Origin: a virus
Length of the DNA: 30,601 nt
IMG/VR virus record: IMGVR_UViG_3300042561_001348
Span: 1 to 30,601 of that record
Reading direction: 5' to 3' (one strand)
Shown here: in pieces, positions 16,923-27,249 of the stretch
Numbering within the stretch: the first letter of the stretch is position 1
How the letters are laid out: each line of letters starts with the position of its first letter
Position numbers and translations under genes: made by a program
The notes under the pieces: model-generated
The model's input: the letters and a program-made list of their open reading frames with translations, nothing else
Databases searched by the model: none
What the model was told of the DNA's origin: nothing

Positions 16923-18053
16923 ATGTCAAGCCCGCAACAGGTTTTGGATTTTATCAAACGAAATAATGGTGTCGTCAAGTTGCGGGAATTAAGTCATTTC
17001 CCAGGACAATTACTTAATAGATTGGAGCGCAATCAATCTATTGAAGTAGTAAAACTTGATGGCGATTGGCAAGTACGTATTAATTCTGTATTTGACAAAA
17101 AGACAAGTGAATCACCTGCCACAATTAACGAAAAGAAACATCAATCTGAGTCGAAACATCAATCTGAGTCGAAACATCAATCTGAGTCGAAACATCAATC
17201 TAAGTCAACCCGTAAAGATTGCGCCCAAAAGCCAAGAACTCAGAAGAGGTTAACCAAAATCACTCCCCAGGTTGTTCCAAATCCGAAACCATTGCGACAA
17301 AGGAAGCCCATACAGAAGAAACCAACAACTTGTGCAAAACCCAAAAAAATAAGGATAAAACCAAAGCGTGGGTACGTATATTCTAGGGAGAAAATACTGA
17401 ATCTTCTTGCAACGTCAGAAAAAGCACTGACCGCAAGAGAGATAGGAGAAAGTGGATTATGTGGGTACAAAACATCTGTCTACAAAACACTAAATCGGTT
17501 AATAGAGCTTGGCGATATTGTCGCCTCTTCTGATAAGGCTAAAAACAGAGTATTCATTGACAAGGACCGAGTTCATTTATTGCAAATTAAACGAACTGTC
17601 AGAGGGCGTGAATTTGCCCAGATGAACCGAAACAGGGTTTTAAGCTACATAAAAAAAGAAGGCAGGATACTTGAAATTGCTGATGTAGTAACCGCAACAA
17701 ATATCACAAAGAAAACAGCAATCAGGATAGTGATTTTTTGGGGAGAGGCAGGGGATCTCACTCTAATTAGAGACTCCGAAAGGGGGAATAGATTACATTT
17801 TGTACCATCAGAGAATGCTGAATTGGTAACAAAACTGATGCAATTAAACGAATTATCTACCGCCAATCAAGTTAGGAAAATCCTAGAATCTACCAATAGG
17901 GGCGTGTCTATTGGCGATGTGTTGGTAGCAATCGGCAAAGGACGGAGAAATGGCGGTTGCTACAAATACATTAAGAAATTATTCAAGCAATGGGGATGTA
18001 AGACTTATCGGCAAGGCTGCGGACTTTATTATTATCTTGACGGGAAAATATGA
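16923..18053 (+). CDS. Multi-winged-helix protein with KHQSES repeats
   Basis: A 376-residue very basic protein. Apparent winged-helix units: about 3-48 (QQVLDFIKRNNGVVKLREL), 150-212 (REKILNLLATSEKALTAREI, VYKTLNRLIELGDIVAS), 232-290 (NRVLSYIKKEGRILEIADVV) and perhaps 305-376. Between the first and second lies a linker with four tandem copies of a six-residue SKHQSE unit (17135-17206) and a Lys/Pro/Arg-rich stretch. This looks like a DNA-binding protein with several modules on a flexible basic linker. The strong Shine-Dalgarno is in a duplicated 17-mer. Its stop overlaps the next ATG by 4 nt. Function unknown; transcription control or DNA packaging of early DNA is possible. Confidence 0.6.
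   Translation: MSSPQQVLDFIKRNNGVVKLRELSHFPGQLLNRLERNQSIEVVKLDGDWQVRINSVFDKKTSESPATINEKKHQSESKHQSESKHQSESKHQSKSTRKDCAQKPRTQKRLTKITPQVVPNPKPLRQRKPIQKKPTTCAKPKKIRIKPKRGYVYSREKILNLLATSEKALTAREIGESGLCGYKTSVYKTLNRLIELGDIVASSDKAKNRVFIDKDRVHLLQIKRTVRGREFAQMNRNRVLSYIKKEGRILEIADVVTATNITKKTAIRIVIFWGEAGDLTLIRDSERGNRLHFVPSENAELVTKLMQLNELSTANQVRKILESTNRGVSIGDVLVAIGKGRRNGGCYKYIKKLFKQWGCKTYRQGCGLYYYLDGKI
17135..17206 (+). repeat. 18-bp tandem repeat, four copies
   Basis: GAAACATCAATCTGAGTC repeats four times head to tail inside the gene at 16923, the last copy with one change (TAAGTC). In frame, so copy number can change without breaking the protein. Confidence 0.85.
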
Positions 18054-18668: not shown

Positions 18669-19214
18669 ATGGCTTCTGAATTAACAAGGTTTAAGTCACT
18701 CCTCCCTGTCCACATTGACATATACGACAAAGACCAGCAAATTCCAGTTGTATATACCGACATAGGATACGAGGATAGTTTGCTGACTCATCAAGAAGTT
18801 GACGAATTAATCGCTTTACTTAAACAGTACAAAAACACTTTCAGGAAAGAGGATGTTCAGGGTGCGCCAGGTATCCATGCCTCTAGCGCTCAACACATAC
18901 TCAGTAAATTTTTGCAACGCAAACGAAATCAAAAAGGCTGGGTGTATGTAATCCATGCGACGGATTTGGGGTTATTTAAAATTGGATGTAGTAAAAACCC
19001 AAGCGCAAGATTACGCCAGTTAGTAAAATCTCAAATCCCTTCTGAGTTGGTATTAGTCCATCTGCGTAAATCTGACTCCATGTATAGCGACGAAAAAACA
19101 ATTCATACTCGTTATGCGGTCAAAAGAGTGAACGGGGAATGGTTTCGCTTATCAGAGGAAGATATTTCTGAAATAAAAAGTTTTGCAGGGGTAAACGATG
19201 GGCAACTTTCGTAA
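18669..19214 (+). CDS. T5orf172/MUG113-type GIY-YIG-like nuclease domain protein
   Basis: A 181-residue protein. Residues 90-170 match the T5orf172 (MUG113) branch of the GIY-YIG fold: GWVYVIHATDLGLFKIGCSK with the VYVI and FKIG strands, then ARLRQLVKSQIP, then a helix with EKTIHTRYA and GEWFRL. This domain occurs in phage proteins and endonucleases. The N-terminal 85 residues are not recognised. It opens the replication operon after the XRE gene and overlaps the initiator gene by 17 nt. A role in DNA processing is likely; substrate unknown. Confidence 0.75.
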   Translation: MASELTRFKSLLPVHIDIYDKDQQIPVVYTDIGYEDSLLTHQEVDELIALLKQYKNTFRKEDVQGAPGIHASSAQHILSKFLQRKRNQKGWVYVIHATDLGLFKIGCSKNPSARLRQLVKSQIPSELVLVHLRKSDSMYSDEKTIHTRYAVKRVNGEWFRLSEEDISEIKSFAGVNDGQLS

Positions 19215-20247
19215 AACCACACCCCATAAATGCTTCACTAAATTACCGAACGATCTTATTAGGAATACAGAAATTAGTGATAGCACATTTCGCTTGATTT
19301 GCTGGATAAGCTCCCATAGCGAGGGGTTCAACATCTCATTCAACAGTATTAAGTCTCAACTAGGTTACGGGCGCGACAAAATGCGCGCAATCATAACTGA
19401 GGGGGAAAAAAATGATTACCTCGTCAGAATTAAGACCAGGAATGATAAGGGTCAAATTGACTGGGATTATTTTGTGTTTGCTGAACAGGAAGAATGCCGA
19501 GAGTTCAAGCGCACACTGCCACCGGAGGACAAGCCAGAGGTGGTTGACCCGTCGGTGGGTCAACCGTCGGTTGACGAACCGACGACGGAACAACCAGTAT
19601 ATGGGACAGCCGTCGGTGGGTTAGAACCCCCTCTTAAGAAGATTCAATTTAAAGAAGAACAAATTAAAGAAGAACAGGAGAGAGAAGAACCCCCTACTCC
19701 CAAAGTCGAAGTTCTAGCCCCAAAACCAATAAATCCGGAAACCCAAGAAAGTGCTTTAGAGCAAATCGGTTTTCCTGGTAATCAAAATCCAAAATCTTCG
19801 CAACCAACCGATAACCCCTCTTTAGGGCAAAAGTCCCCCGCGCCGCTTGCAAATGCTGAAACAACAGCAGATAGGGTTAGGCGCACATATCAAGAAACGG
19901 GAAATTTACCCCGTATACCAGCCGAATTAGAGGCATGGGTACAAATAGACCTTGGGAGTGAGATCGTTGCCTCCTACCGCAAATCTGGCAGGATTACGAC
20001 GATCAAACAGGGTGACATCCAACCCGACTTTGCCCGATATGTTTCCGCGCAAAACAAGGGAAAGGACATTGACTATGGATATTCGTATATCCGAAGCCTA
20101 GAGAAAGACCCTACTAGATGGGAAACACTGGCGGCCTTGGTCATCAAATGGCAAGCGTCCGGTGGCAACGACGCGCTAAACATCACCAAAGAAATTTCAA
20201 AACAAAATCAACCTGATTACAGTTGGCTCTTAAACGCTAGAATTTGA
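19198..20247 (+). CDS. Replication initiator (lambda O-like, winged-helix N-terminus)
   Basis: A 349-residue protein. Residues 10-100 form a winged-helix pattern typical of phage replication initiators (FTKLPNDLIRNTEISDSTFR, SFNSIKSQLGYGRDKMRAII, NDYLVRIKTR). Residues 105-220 are a Pro/Glu/Gln-rich linker whose DNA holds clustered palindromes and repeats (likely origin). The C-terminal domain (about 225-349) includes RVRRTYQETGNLPRIPAELE and YSYIRSLEKDPTRWETLA and may bind the helicase loader. Followed after 7 nt by the gene at 20255. The layout (initiator, internal origin, loader) mirrors lambda O and P; no sequence identity to O is claimed. Confidence 0.65.
   Translation: MGNFRKTTPHKCFTKLPNDLIRNTEISDSTFRLICWISSHSEGFNISFNSIKSQLGYGRDKMRAIITEGEKNDYLVRIKTRNDKGQIDWDYFVFAEQEECREFKRTLPPEDKPEVVDPSVGQPSVDEPTTEQPVYGTAVGGLEPPLKKIQFKEEQIKEEQEREEPPTPKVEVLAPKPINPETQESALEQIGFPGNQNPKSSQPTDNPSLGQKSPAPLANAETTADRVRRTYQETGNLPRIPAELEAWVQIDLGSEIVASYRKSGRITTIKQGDIQPDFARYVSAQNKGKDIDYGYSYIRSLEKDPTRWETLAALVIKWQASGGNDALNITKEISKQNQPDYSWLLNARI
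19543..19680 (+). other. Probable origin of replication inside initiator gene
   Basis: Three overlapping palindromes: GTTGACCC...GGGTCAAC (19543-19564), GTCAACCG-T-CGGTTGAC (19559-19575), and CGTCGGTT...AACCGACG (19565-19584). The 12-mer CCGTCGGTGGGT occurs at 19549 and again at 19610. An A-rich, purine-biased stretch with AAAGAAGAACAAATTAAAG follows to about 19680 and could be the unwinding region. This recalls lambda ori within gene O. Functional call is inferred. Confidence 0.6.
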
Positions 20248-20254
20248 GGCTTAT

Positions 20255-20950
20255 ATGTGCAACGAAACACTTCTAACATCTGTTCTTTCTGAATTAGAGG
20301 AACATTACGGCGGGCAAGTTTTAAACGGGAAAATACTTGAGAATACATGGCGGAATGGTCTAGCGAAACTGTCAGATCAGCAATTACAAATAGCAGTTGC
20401 CCGTTGTTTTCAAAAACACCCCAGAAAATACAACTATTTTCCTTGCGTTGACGACATTCTGGAGCTTGCCAGAGGTTCAATGCCAACCGAGAACGCTCAA
20501 GCCTACCAAATCGCTGACCTATCCAAACCAGCGTTACCAGTATCTTACGAGGGTGGCATTTCTCCAGAGGAAGCCGAGGTAAATAAAAAAGAGATTTTGA
20601 TTTCAAGGTTATTTCTCGCCAGTAAATCATCTTTATCTAAAGAAGAAATAGATGGTTTTTTCCCCAAGATGAGGGGGTTTCCGTTTGATGAATTGGAAAA
20701 AATGCTATTAGTTGCAAAATCCCCAGTTATCGCCAAAAGTAAGTTCCCATCCGCGCATAGTTCGGCGATAAGTATGTTTGAGTCTTTGGCGGCTAAAGCC
20801 AGCAATACAGTTCTTGATGATATGAGGAAATATCTTCGTTCTGGCATTGAGAATTATCGCCAAAAAGCAATTGATTGGGCGACAAATAACGGCTATCAAC
20901 TTGTTAAAAAAGGCGGACAAGTTGTAGATATTCGGGAGGTTGAATTTTAA
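20255..20950 (+). CDS. Candidate helicase loader / replication accessory protein
   Basis: A 231-residue mostly helical protein. The N-terminal 75 residues (LSELEEHYGGQVLNGKILEN, TWRNGLAKLSDQQLQIAVAR, KYNYFPCVDDILELARG) resemble the small helical domain of phage helicase-loader and replication proteins, in which each helix pair is followed by a FP..DILELA turn. No Walker motif is seen, so it is not a DnaC-type ATPase. The middle (about 110-150) has another helical unit. Its place right after the initiator supports a loader role. Distance to the previous stop is 7 nt. Confidence 0.45.
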   Translation: MCNETLLTSVLSELEEHYGGQVLNGKILENTWRNGLAKLSDQQLQIAVARCFQKHPRKYNYFPCVDDILELARGSMPTENAQAYQIADLSKPALPVSYEGGISPEEAEVNKKEILISRLFLASKSSLSKEEIDGFFPKMRGFPFDELEKMLLVAKSPVIAKSKFPSAHSSAISMFESLAAKASNTVLDDMRKYLRSGIENYRQKAIDWATNNGYQLVKKGGQVVDIREVEF

Positions 20951-20952
20951 CC

Positions 20953-21954
20953 ATGAATGCAGAGCAACTGAAGATTATCGCAGAAAATTCACCCCGTGAA
21001 GCTGCCAAAATCCTAAATATTCACATCAGAAATGTCCGATATCACAAGCAAAGAATGGAGGGGAAGAGCGTGAAACAGCTAAAACAACCCAAGACAAACT
21101 ATAAGAAATGGACGCAAGAAGAGGACAATTATTTACTTACTTTCGGGAATGATTCAACTTATCCAGAGTTAGAAGAAACACTTAAAGCGTCTCGCACTCA
21201 AATAGACCATAGATGCAAAGCATTAGGCGTTTCTCCAAAGAAACAGACAAACTATAAGAAATGGACGCAAGAAGAGGACAATTATTTACTTACTTTCGGG
21301 AATGATTCAACTTATCCAGAGTTAGAAGAAACACTTAAAGCGTCTCGCACTCAAATAGACCATAGATGCAAAGCATTAGGCGTTTCTCCAAAGAAACTAA
21401 AACATCATAAAATCTTCACAGAAGAGGAAAAGGAGATTTGCTTACAAGGCTATCTTCACCAAGCAGCGGAAAAGCTGGGAGTCTCCATTCCAACTGCTGG
21501 ACGACGTAGGAGGGAACTACTGAAAATAGATTTAGTGCCATTACCACTACCTACACCAACAAGATCGCTGATAAATTTTGTTGGTTTCAACGATGTCAAA
21601 CAACCCGTAGAACCAACAATAGAATCAAGCATAGAATCAAGCATGGAATCAATAACAGATCCAGTAGTAGAGCCAACATGGACACCTAAAAACGACATAC
21701 TTTTGATCAAGCGAATTAGCAATAATTCCATTGACAAAGTTGCCAAATTATTTGGACAACCTGAAGAACAAGTCAAGATTGGGATTAATGAAATTTTGTC
21801 GCAATTCCCAGAAATGACTGTCGGACAAATTCATCAAACGAAACTTATTCATTCCTATAGCCCTAAATCGGCTGTGAGATATTGCGAGGTAATTCGGGAA
21901 TATGCAAAGAACAGAGCCGCATATTCACCAGCAAGAATTAAGAACGACAGATGA
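20953..21954 (+). CDS. Myb/SANT-like DNA-binding protein with exact 51-residue duplication
   Basis: A 333-residue protein. Residues 48-98 and 99-149 are identical copies of a Myb/SANT-like unit (KKWTQEEDNYLLTFGND, ELEETLKASRTQIDHRCKAL). A third, diverged unit follows (FTEEEKEICLQGYLHQAAEK) and a helix-turn-helix (LGVSIPTAGRRRRELL). A short start domain also reads as HTH (REAAKILNIHIRNVRYHK). An SSIESSMES-type repeat linker (about 222-236) leads to a C-terminal Myb-like unit (ILLIKRISNNSIDKVAKLFG). Several DNA-contacting modules in a row suggest binding to repeated sites, perhaps at the origin. ATGA overlap with the methyltransferase gene. Confidence 0.6.
   Translation: MNAEQLKIIAENSPREAAKILNIHIRNVRYHKQRMEGKSVKQLKQPKTNYKKWTQEEDNYLLTFGNDSTYPELEETLKASRTQIDHRCKALGVSPKKQTNYKKWTQEEDNYLLTFGNDSTYPELEETLKASRTQIDHRCKALGVSPKKLKHHKIFTEEEKEICLQGYLHQAAEKLGVSIPTAGRRRRELLKIDLVPLPLPTPTRSLINFVGFNDVKQPVEPTIESSIESSMESITDPVVEPTWTPKNDILLIKRISNNSIDKVAKLFGQPEEQVKIGINEILSQFPEMTVGQIHQTKLIHSYSPKSAVRYCEVIREYAKNRAAYSPARIKNDR
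21092..21397 (+). repeat. Exact 153-bp tandem duplication
   Basis: Copy 1 (21092-21244) and copy 2 (21245-21397) look identical base for base when read by eye, in frame (51 codons). No synonymous change suggests a recent event or ongoing homogenisation. Confidence 0.9.
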
Positions 21955-26148: not shown

Positions 26149-27249
26149 TTAAAATTTATTATCAAAAGCAGAATGCGTCCTGGACATTGGAAGAGACGCG
26201 CTTAAAAGCAACCCATATATTGTTGCTATAGTTGAATTGTAAGGTACACAAAAAACTCTTCCATCGGGTAACAATACTCCACCAACAAATGCAAGATTAC
26301 CAGAATAAGTGCCTGATGGAGTCGTTACTGTATCAGTAGCAGGATTGTATATTCTTGCTGTAGTTGAAATGAAAGGTACACAAAAAACTCTTCCATCGGG
26401 TAACAATACTCCACCAACAAATGCATTACTACCAGGATAAGTACCTGATGGAGTTGTTACTGTATCAGTAGCAGGATTGTATATTCTTGCTGTAGTTGAA
26501 TTGTAAGGTACACAAAAAACTCTTCCATCGGGTAACAATACTCCACCAAAAAATGCAAAATTACCAGGATAAGTACCTGATGGAGTTGTTACTGTATCAG
26601 TAGCAGGATTGTATATTCTTGCTGTAGTTGAAATGAAAGGTACACAAAAAACTCTTCCATCGGGTAACAATACTCCACCAACAAATGCATCATTACCAGG
26701 ATAAGTACCTGATGGAGTCGTTACTGTATCAGTAGCAGGATTGTATATTCTTGCTGTAGTTGAATTGTAAGGTACACAAAAAACTCTTCCATCGGGTAAC
26801 AATACTCCACCAGCAAATGCACCACTACCAGAATAAGTACCTGATGGAGTCGTTACTGTATCAGTAGCAGGATTGTATATTGTTGCTATAGTTGAATTGT
26901 AAGGTACACAAAAAACTCTTCCATCGGGTAACAATACTCCACCAACAAATGCACCACTACCAGAATAAGTACCTGATGGAGTCGTTACTGTATCAGTAGC
27001 AGGATTGTATATTCTTGCTGTAGTTGAATAGTAAGGTACACAAAAAACTCTTCCATCGGGTAACAATACTCCACTAAAAAATGCTCTACTACCAGGATAA
27101 GTACCTGATGGAGTCGTTACAATGTCGGACAAAGTTCCGTAATTGTAATTACGGGCTGCCATAAAATTAGCAACGGGTTCGAGAGGAAAATAGTAGTTTG
27201 GAAAAGAAGAGTTCTTCCCCAATACCACAACCTTAGTAGAAGTCCTCAT
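26149..27249 (-). CDS. Seven-repeat beta-propeller adhesin (Kelch-like)
   Basis: A 366-residue protein. After a 45-residue N-terminal part it holds seven copies of a 44-residue unit with IYNPATDTVTTPSGTY, GGVLLPDGRVFCVP and STTAR. Seven such units fit a seven-bladed beta-propeller of Kelch/galactose-oxidase type. The repeats are nearly identical except for two short patches (after GTY-x-G and after FCVP). Each unit contains one Cys. The protein is probably a virion surface or receptor-binding protein; no enzyme residues are evident. It overlaps the upstream gene by 4 nt and belongs to a leftward cassette set between portal and scaffold genes. Confidence 0.75.
   Translation of the reverse strand: MRTSTKVVVLGKNSSFPNYYFPLEPVANFMAARNYNYGTLSDIVTTPSGTYPGSRAFFSGVLLPDGRVFCVPYYSTTARIYNPATDTVTTPSGTYSGSGAFVGGVLLPDGRVFCVPYNSTIATIYNPATDTVTTPSGTYSGSGAFAGGVLLPDGRVFCVPYNSTTARIYNPATDTVTTPSGTYPGNDAFVGGVLLPDGRVFCVPFISTTARIYNPATDTVTTPSGTYPGNFAFFGGVLLPDGRVFCVPYNSTTARIYNPATDTVTTPSGTYPGSNAFVGGVLLPDGRVFCVPFISTTARIYNPATDTVTTPSGTYSGNLAFVGGVLLPDGRVFCVPYNSTIATIYGLLLSASLPMSRTHSAFDNKF
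26213..27119 (-). repeat. 132-bp tandem repeats, about seven units
   Basis: The motif AAGGTACACAAAAAACTC (plus strand) recurs every 132 bp, for example at 26241 and 26373. Units differ mainly at the two variable patches of the encoded blade, plus a few silent changes. Confidence 0.9.

Follow-up and report, generated by a model that had tools for sequence, protein, structure and literature searches.

Positions 19532-19690 of the virus sequence analysed here (an IMG/VR record of 30,601 bases, the whole of which we call the window) very probably form the replication origin of a probable cyanophage and lie within its own initiator gene, in the codons for the linker. The N-domain of the initiator would bind a set of iterons, the A-rich tract beside them would melt, and the C-domain together with a partner protein would bring in the helicase. 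This reading, drawn from sequence comparison, provides a concrete origin candidate for an uncultured virus whose host is probably cyanobacterial, and likewise for large Nostocales plasmids, the replication of which is mostly annotated as hypothetical. A limited literature search found no description of such an origin in a cyanophage or in Nostoc.

The probable initiator gene and the repeats in its linker codons

The features that the argument uses are the following.

19198-20247, plus strand: probable replication initiator gene, 349 aa (winged-helix N-domain, linker, C-domain), from profile matches and homologs
19198-19521, plus strand: codons of the N-terminal DNA-binding domain, aa 1-108, about 50% identical to Nostocales plasmid proteins
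19532-19632, plus strand: iteron array of imperfect 15-bp direct repeats and overlapping dyads, proposed initiator binding sites
19542-19565, unstranded: palindrome 1, perfect, GGTTGACCC-gtcggt-GGGTCAACC (9+9)
19559-19575, unstranded: palindrome 2, perfect, GTCAACCG-t-CGGTTGAC (8+8)
19565-19584, unstranded: palindrome 3, perfect, CGTCGGTT-gacg-AACCGACG (8+8)
19549-19560, plus strand: 12-mer CCGTCGGTGGGT, copy 1, codon phase 0, translated PSVG
19610-19621, plus strand: 12-mer CCGTCGGTGGGT, copy 2, codon phase 1, translated AVGG
19631-19690, plus strand: A-rich tract, the gene's least stable 60 bp (from gene nt 434), proposed unwinding element
19849-20220, plus strand: C-terminal domain, type I, common to the relatives L002, L003, L005 and L043, two Cylindrospermopsis phages and some Nostocales plasmids
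20255-20950, plus strand: next gene, 231 aa, conserved initiator partner and proposed helicase loader, with DnaB in its place in type II relatives

The N-domain of the window protein matches HTH_36 (PF13730) weakly, at 22.1 bits against a Pfam cut-off of 25, and the homologs L012, L014 and L005 match the same profile at 39.9, 29.0 and 29.8 bits, respectively. Among PHROGs the window protein matches phrog_1456, annotated DNA binding protein, and has a weak match to phrog_270, annotated replication initiation protein (E=0.0017). The matches of L003 and L005 are clearer: they reach replication-initiation PHROGs with values as low as 1.7e-21 and include 'O-like' ones. The top phage matches of the window N-domain are labelled RepA-like replication initiator (Gordonia phage Cafasso, E=2e-6), and the N-domain of L003 has relatives in 182 phage records, several of them labelled replication initiation protein, RepA-like initiator or DnaD. 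Homologs of the window initiator are also found on plasmids of Nostoc, Halotia and Scytonema. As its C-domain is common to Cylindrospermopsis phages and homologs lie on Nostocales plasmids, the host of the virus is probably a cyanobacterium. A T5orf172/MUG113 (GIY-YIG-like) gene at 18669-19214 overlaps the start of the initiator gene, and L005 and the Halotia plasmid L007 have similar genes immediately upstream of their initiators.

An earlier note on this DNA had described three overlapping palindromes, a repeated 12-mer and an adjacent A-rich stretch at 19543-19680, and each of these is present. The three palindromes are perfect, overlap and lie in linker codons, the first of them starting at 19542, one base before the noted 19543. 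The 12-mer stands at 19549 and 19610 in two codon phases, with no third exact copy anywhere in the 30.6-kb window, and the A-rich stretch is indeed the least stable 60 bp in the gene, with an A-rich 15-bp repeat detected by TRF at 19636-19676. Beneath the dyads runs a family of 15-nt direct repeats with starts at 19532, 19547, 19562, 19593 and 19608, and a weaker palindrome, GGGTT-ag-AACCC, can be read directly off the sequence at 19618-19629. Only the extent needed adjustment, the noted interval lying within a feature of about 19532-19690.

The window holds other repeats as well. A perfect 153-bp tandem duplication at 21092-21397, within ORF 20953-21954, doubles a DNA-binding-like domain, and the related L005 protein, shorter by 83 aa, would fit a single copy. 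At 26216-27120 a 132-bp unit is repeated in tandem about seven times (94% matches); it lies in the minus-strand ORF 26149-27249, the product of which may be a tail fibre or adhesin-like repeat protein. An 18-bp direct repeat occurs four times at 17135-17206 within ORF 16923-18053.

Selection on the DNA and layout in relatives

The palindromes and repeats are not a by-product of the protein sequence. When positions 19522-19641 were recoded with synonymous codons (1000 trials each, using genome codon usage or permuting the region's own codons), none of the 1000 genome-usage recodings came up to the real sequence in palindrome score, in the count of perfect palindromes or in that of repeats, and the permutations did so in 7, 0 and 4 of 1000 trials, respectively. 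Among 509 windows taken across the 30.6 kb, the highest palindrome scores were those of the linker region of the initiator gene. In L002 and in L043 the 15-mer ACGGTCAAAYAACCG is present six times, spaced by exactly 23 nt and in all three codon phases, its copies being translated as GQTTAE, TVKQPQ and RSNNRR, which indicates that the DNA is conserved rather than the peptide. L016 and L018 carry iteron copies at 22/23 nt in two frames, with one 44-nt interval in L018, and the last copy in L005 is out of frame by a one-base shift. With the 12-mer of the window in two frames and ACGGTCAAAYAACCG in three, peptide repetition cannot account for these copies. The synonymous null (0/1000, and at most 7/1000) bears out the earlier suggestion that protein coding alone would not create the palindromes and repeats. 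This null, the several codon phases and the way in which the repeats track the N-domain family give good support to the further suggestion of a function for the DNA itself. The occurrence of one site's copies in all three frames provides a simple test to find embedded origins elsewhere.

Relatives on cyanophage contigs, in two Cylindrospermopsis phages and on Nostocales plasmids were gathered with protein and profile searches; a direct search of IMG/VR with the window N-domain and a single-sequence scan of genomes returned nothing, but profile searches did find relatives. Nearly all of them keep the order of winged-helix N-domain, short DNA repeats, A-rich tract and C-domain, and the Scytonema group has degenerate repeats only. 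In 26 of 29 genes, which are related and not independent samples, the 60 bp of lowest stability anywhere in the gene begin immediately 3' of the repeats, and in the remaining three the site 3' of the repeats ranks within the top 0.1-3.3% for instability. Repeat boundaries in this comparison were set by inspection and the stability minimum was computed blindly. Five initiators from phages of Firmicutes and Actinobacteria (Lactobacillus, Gordonia, Arthrobacter and Pontimonas) likewise have their 60-bp stability minimum in the linker, at gene nt 371-437, and the initiator gene of Pontimonas phage phiPsal1 contains palindromic repeats in two codon phases.

A search of all IMG/VR for an exact 17-mer iteron returned two contigs that lack the initiator; the 17-mer falls there in coding regions of no relation to it, and both were rejected as chance matches and not taken as further origins. 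The L002-type double motif, sought across IMG/VR, matched the two known relatives only. GC skew is weak and does not switch at the initiator gene, either in the window or in most of six related records; the sole case among the seven records is the L043 contig (IMGVR_UViG_3300045954_000073), in which the minimum of the detrended cumulative GC skew falls at 20270, inside the initiator gene (19209-20282).

Copies of the region were also seen outside an intact initiator gene. Cylindrospermopsis phage Cr-LKS4 (L080 2772-2856; phage 76772-76855) has in an unannotated gap an 84-bp stretch 87% identical to the in-gene iterons and A-rich tract, with an inverted copy at 98330-98247, and the stretch sits in a long inverted repeat. 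It may be another origin-like site or what is left of a decayed coding sequence, and because of the latter possibility it is not counted as independent evidence for a site like oriR. Nostoc sp. TCL26-01 plasmid NZ_CP040298.1 (78.7-79.1 kb; L050, L012) carries the initiator gene a second time. Over the iteron region this copy has 97.5% identity, and its reading frame is interrupted inside the iterons; the array of repeats is possibly a hotspot for mutation.

The N-domain with its iterons and the C-domain with its partner

The iterons go with the family of the N-domain. Against the repeat unit of the MSKVV-type Nostoc plasmids, which share the window's N-domain family, the window iterons score 15, a value reached by 0/150 usage recodings, 0/150 base shuffles and 2/150 codon permutations, and they found no match among the iterons of five other N-domain families, several of which share the window's C-domain. 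The DNA identity between the window and L002, L005 and L003 (79-82%) starts only at gene nt 458-549, inside or just past the A-rich tract, and the N-domains of these genes differ. The tracking of N-domain family by iterons and this late start of identity together indicate that N-domain, iterons and A-rich tract move together. They also qualify the expectation of the earlier note that palindromes should recur in phages with the same initiator: relatives by N-domain have similar repeats, and relatives by C-domain only have other repeats along with another N-domain.

The C-domain, in turn, goes with the gene that follows. Clustering of the C-domains gave four classes, and every type II C-domain with a visible neighbour (13/13, a count of mutually related members to which no p-value is attached) is followed by a gene of one cluster, the tested members of which are DnaB-type helicases. 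No DnaB-type helicase gene was found after type I or III C-domains; in type I members, the window included, the next gene encodes a smaller conserved protein, of which the three clusters may be distantly related. The partner gene is predicted by the C-domain and not by the N-domain, as is expected if the C-domain contacts the helicase or its loader, and we infer that it does. From its position the product of 20255-20950 is a candidate helicase loader, although searches of Pfam and PDB sequences gave it no family match to a known loader; PDB sequence searches with the initiator and the downstream protein yielded no convincing match.

By analogy with lambda, SPP1 and pSK41/pPR9, replication would start at this site through binding, melting and helicase recruitment. 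The winged-helix N-domain would bind the iterons of about 15 bp and their dyads, the nucleoprotein complex on the iterons would help to melt the adjacent A-rich tract, and the C-domain and the next gene's product would bring in the replicative helicase. As one specificity cassette, the N-domain, its iterons and the A-rich tract would travel together, and the C-domain would travel with its helicase or loader partner. We consider it reasonably likely that replication in these cyanobacterial phages and plasmids is organized in two slots, in which a cassette of wHTH domain, iterons and unwinding element is joined to a C-domain with a downstream loader or DnaB, and that recombination near the A-rich tract gives new combinations in one step. 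If this swap of N-domain/iteron and C-domain/helicase units is right, related replicons could become compatible in one recombination step, the single staphylococcal case of pPR9 would be extended, and compatible replicons might find use in cyanobacterial genetics.

The repeats could be initiator binding sites that serve autoregulation (as an operator or roadblock), partition or packaging, and not initiation. Iteron-bound initiators often regulate their own genes too, and a parA gene lies near some of the plasmid homologs; however, the sites are about 340 nt into the gene, away from its promoter, an A-rich, least stable tract directly follows the repeats (in 26/29 homologs, with five further phage initiators having theirs in the linker), and the adjoining gene encodes a helicase in one C-domain class. 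We regard such a role in place of initiation as unlikely; alongside an origin, autoregulation, partition or packaging would be compatible and not exclusive.

The repeats might instead have arisen at the level of coding, by slippage in a disordered linker rich in proline and glutamine, with incidental palindromes. Linkers tolerate changes in length, and L003 and most Nostoc plasmids have 15-nt repeats that all keep one codon phase, so that protein and DNA are not separable there. This reading is already disfavoured and seems quite improbable, as copies differ in codon phase in the window, L002, L043, L016, L018, L005 and Pontimonas phage phiPsal1, the synonymous-codon null argues against it, and the repeats track the N-domain family. 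Still harder to credit is a role of the dyads as hairpins, RNA or cruciform, in mRNA or single-stranded DNA (an attenuator, or a primase or single-strand initiation site) and not as protein-binding iterons: they are perfect over 8-9 bp with short loops, yet L005 and L003 have direct repeats with weak dyads only in an unchanged layout, and the identity of the repeats tracks the DNA-binding domain family.

Comparison with known origins

The earlier note had called the site a lambda-type origin, a description which comparison and published precedents support for the layout; in sequence, the window initiator is not a member of the lambda O family. The lambda ori lies in the middle of gene O and consists of four 18-bp iterons, each an inverted repeat, and a 38-bp AT-rich stretch (PMC3349717, PMC7466680). 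The likeness consists in iterons and an AT-rich stretch inside the initiator gene; the next gene in lambda brings the helicase, as is proposed for the next gene in the window. The window protein, in contrast, gave no Phage_rep_O (PF04492) match in a Pfam search, which returned HTH_36 only, and weakly; its wHTH family and C-domain are other than those of O, its iterons are about 15 bp with overlapping dyads, and its setting is cyanobacterial.

In SPP1, oriL lies in gene 38 with direct repeats and an AT-rich element, and the genes follow in the order initiator, loader (gp39) and DnaB-type helicase (gp40) (PMC6316719). The window resembles it in the placing of repeats and AT-rich element within the initiator gene, but an oriR-like second origin is not evident there, and none of the genes adjoining the initiator was recognized as a helicase gene. 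In Pfam and PDB-sequence searches the downstream protein gave no match to gp39. The RepA-like phages of Actinobacteria (Gordonia phage Cafasso, Pontimonas phage phiPsal1) have a homologous N-domain with the least stable tract in the linker after it, and Cafasso has a DnaB-like helicase two genes downstream of the initiator; the iterons and C-domain of the window differ from theirs. For mycobacteriophages, an origin inside repA has been proposed and not mapped (PMC7157519).

In the RepA_N plasmid pSK41, the wHTH N-domain binds Rep boxes that are central in rep, and the origin encodes the linker (PMC5703833). The Pfam search found no RepA_N (PF06970) match in the window protein or its relatives, and the window C-domain is unrelated in sequence. 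The nearest precedent for the cassette exchange is the hybrid Rep of pPR9, in which the N-domain (pfam13730, that is HTH_36) and the origin were replaced as a block of about 500 bp and the C-domain was kept (PMC5703833). The exchange described here differs from that case in spanning cyanobacterial phages and plasmids, and two of its members have iterons in all three frames.
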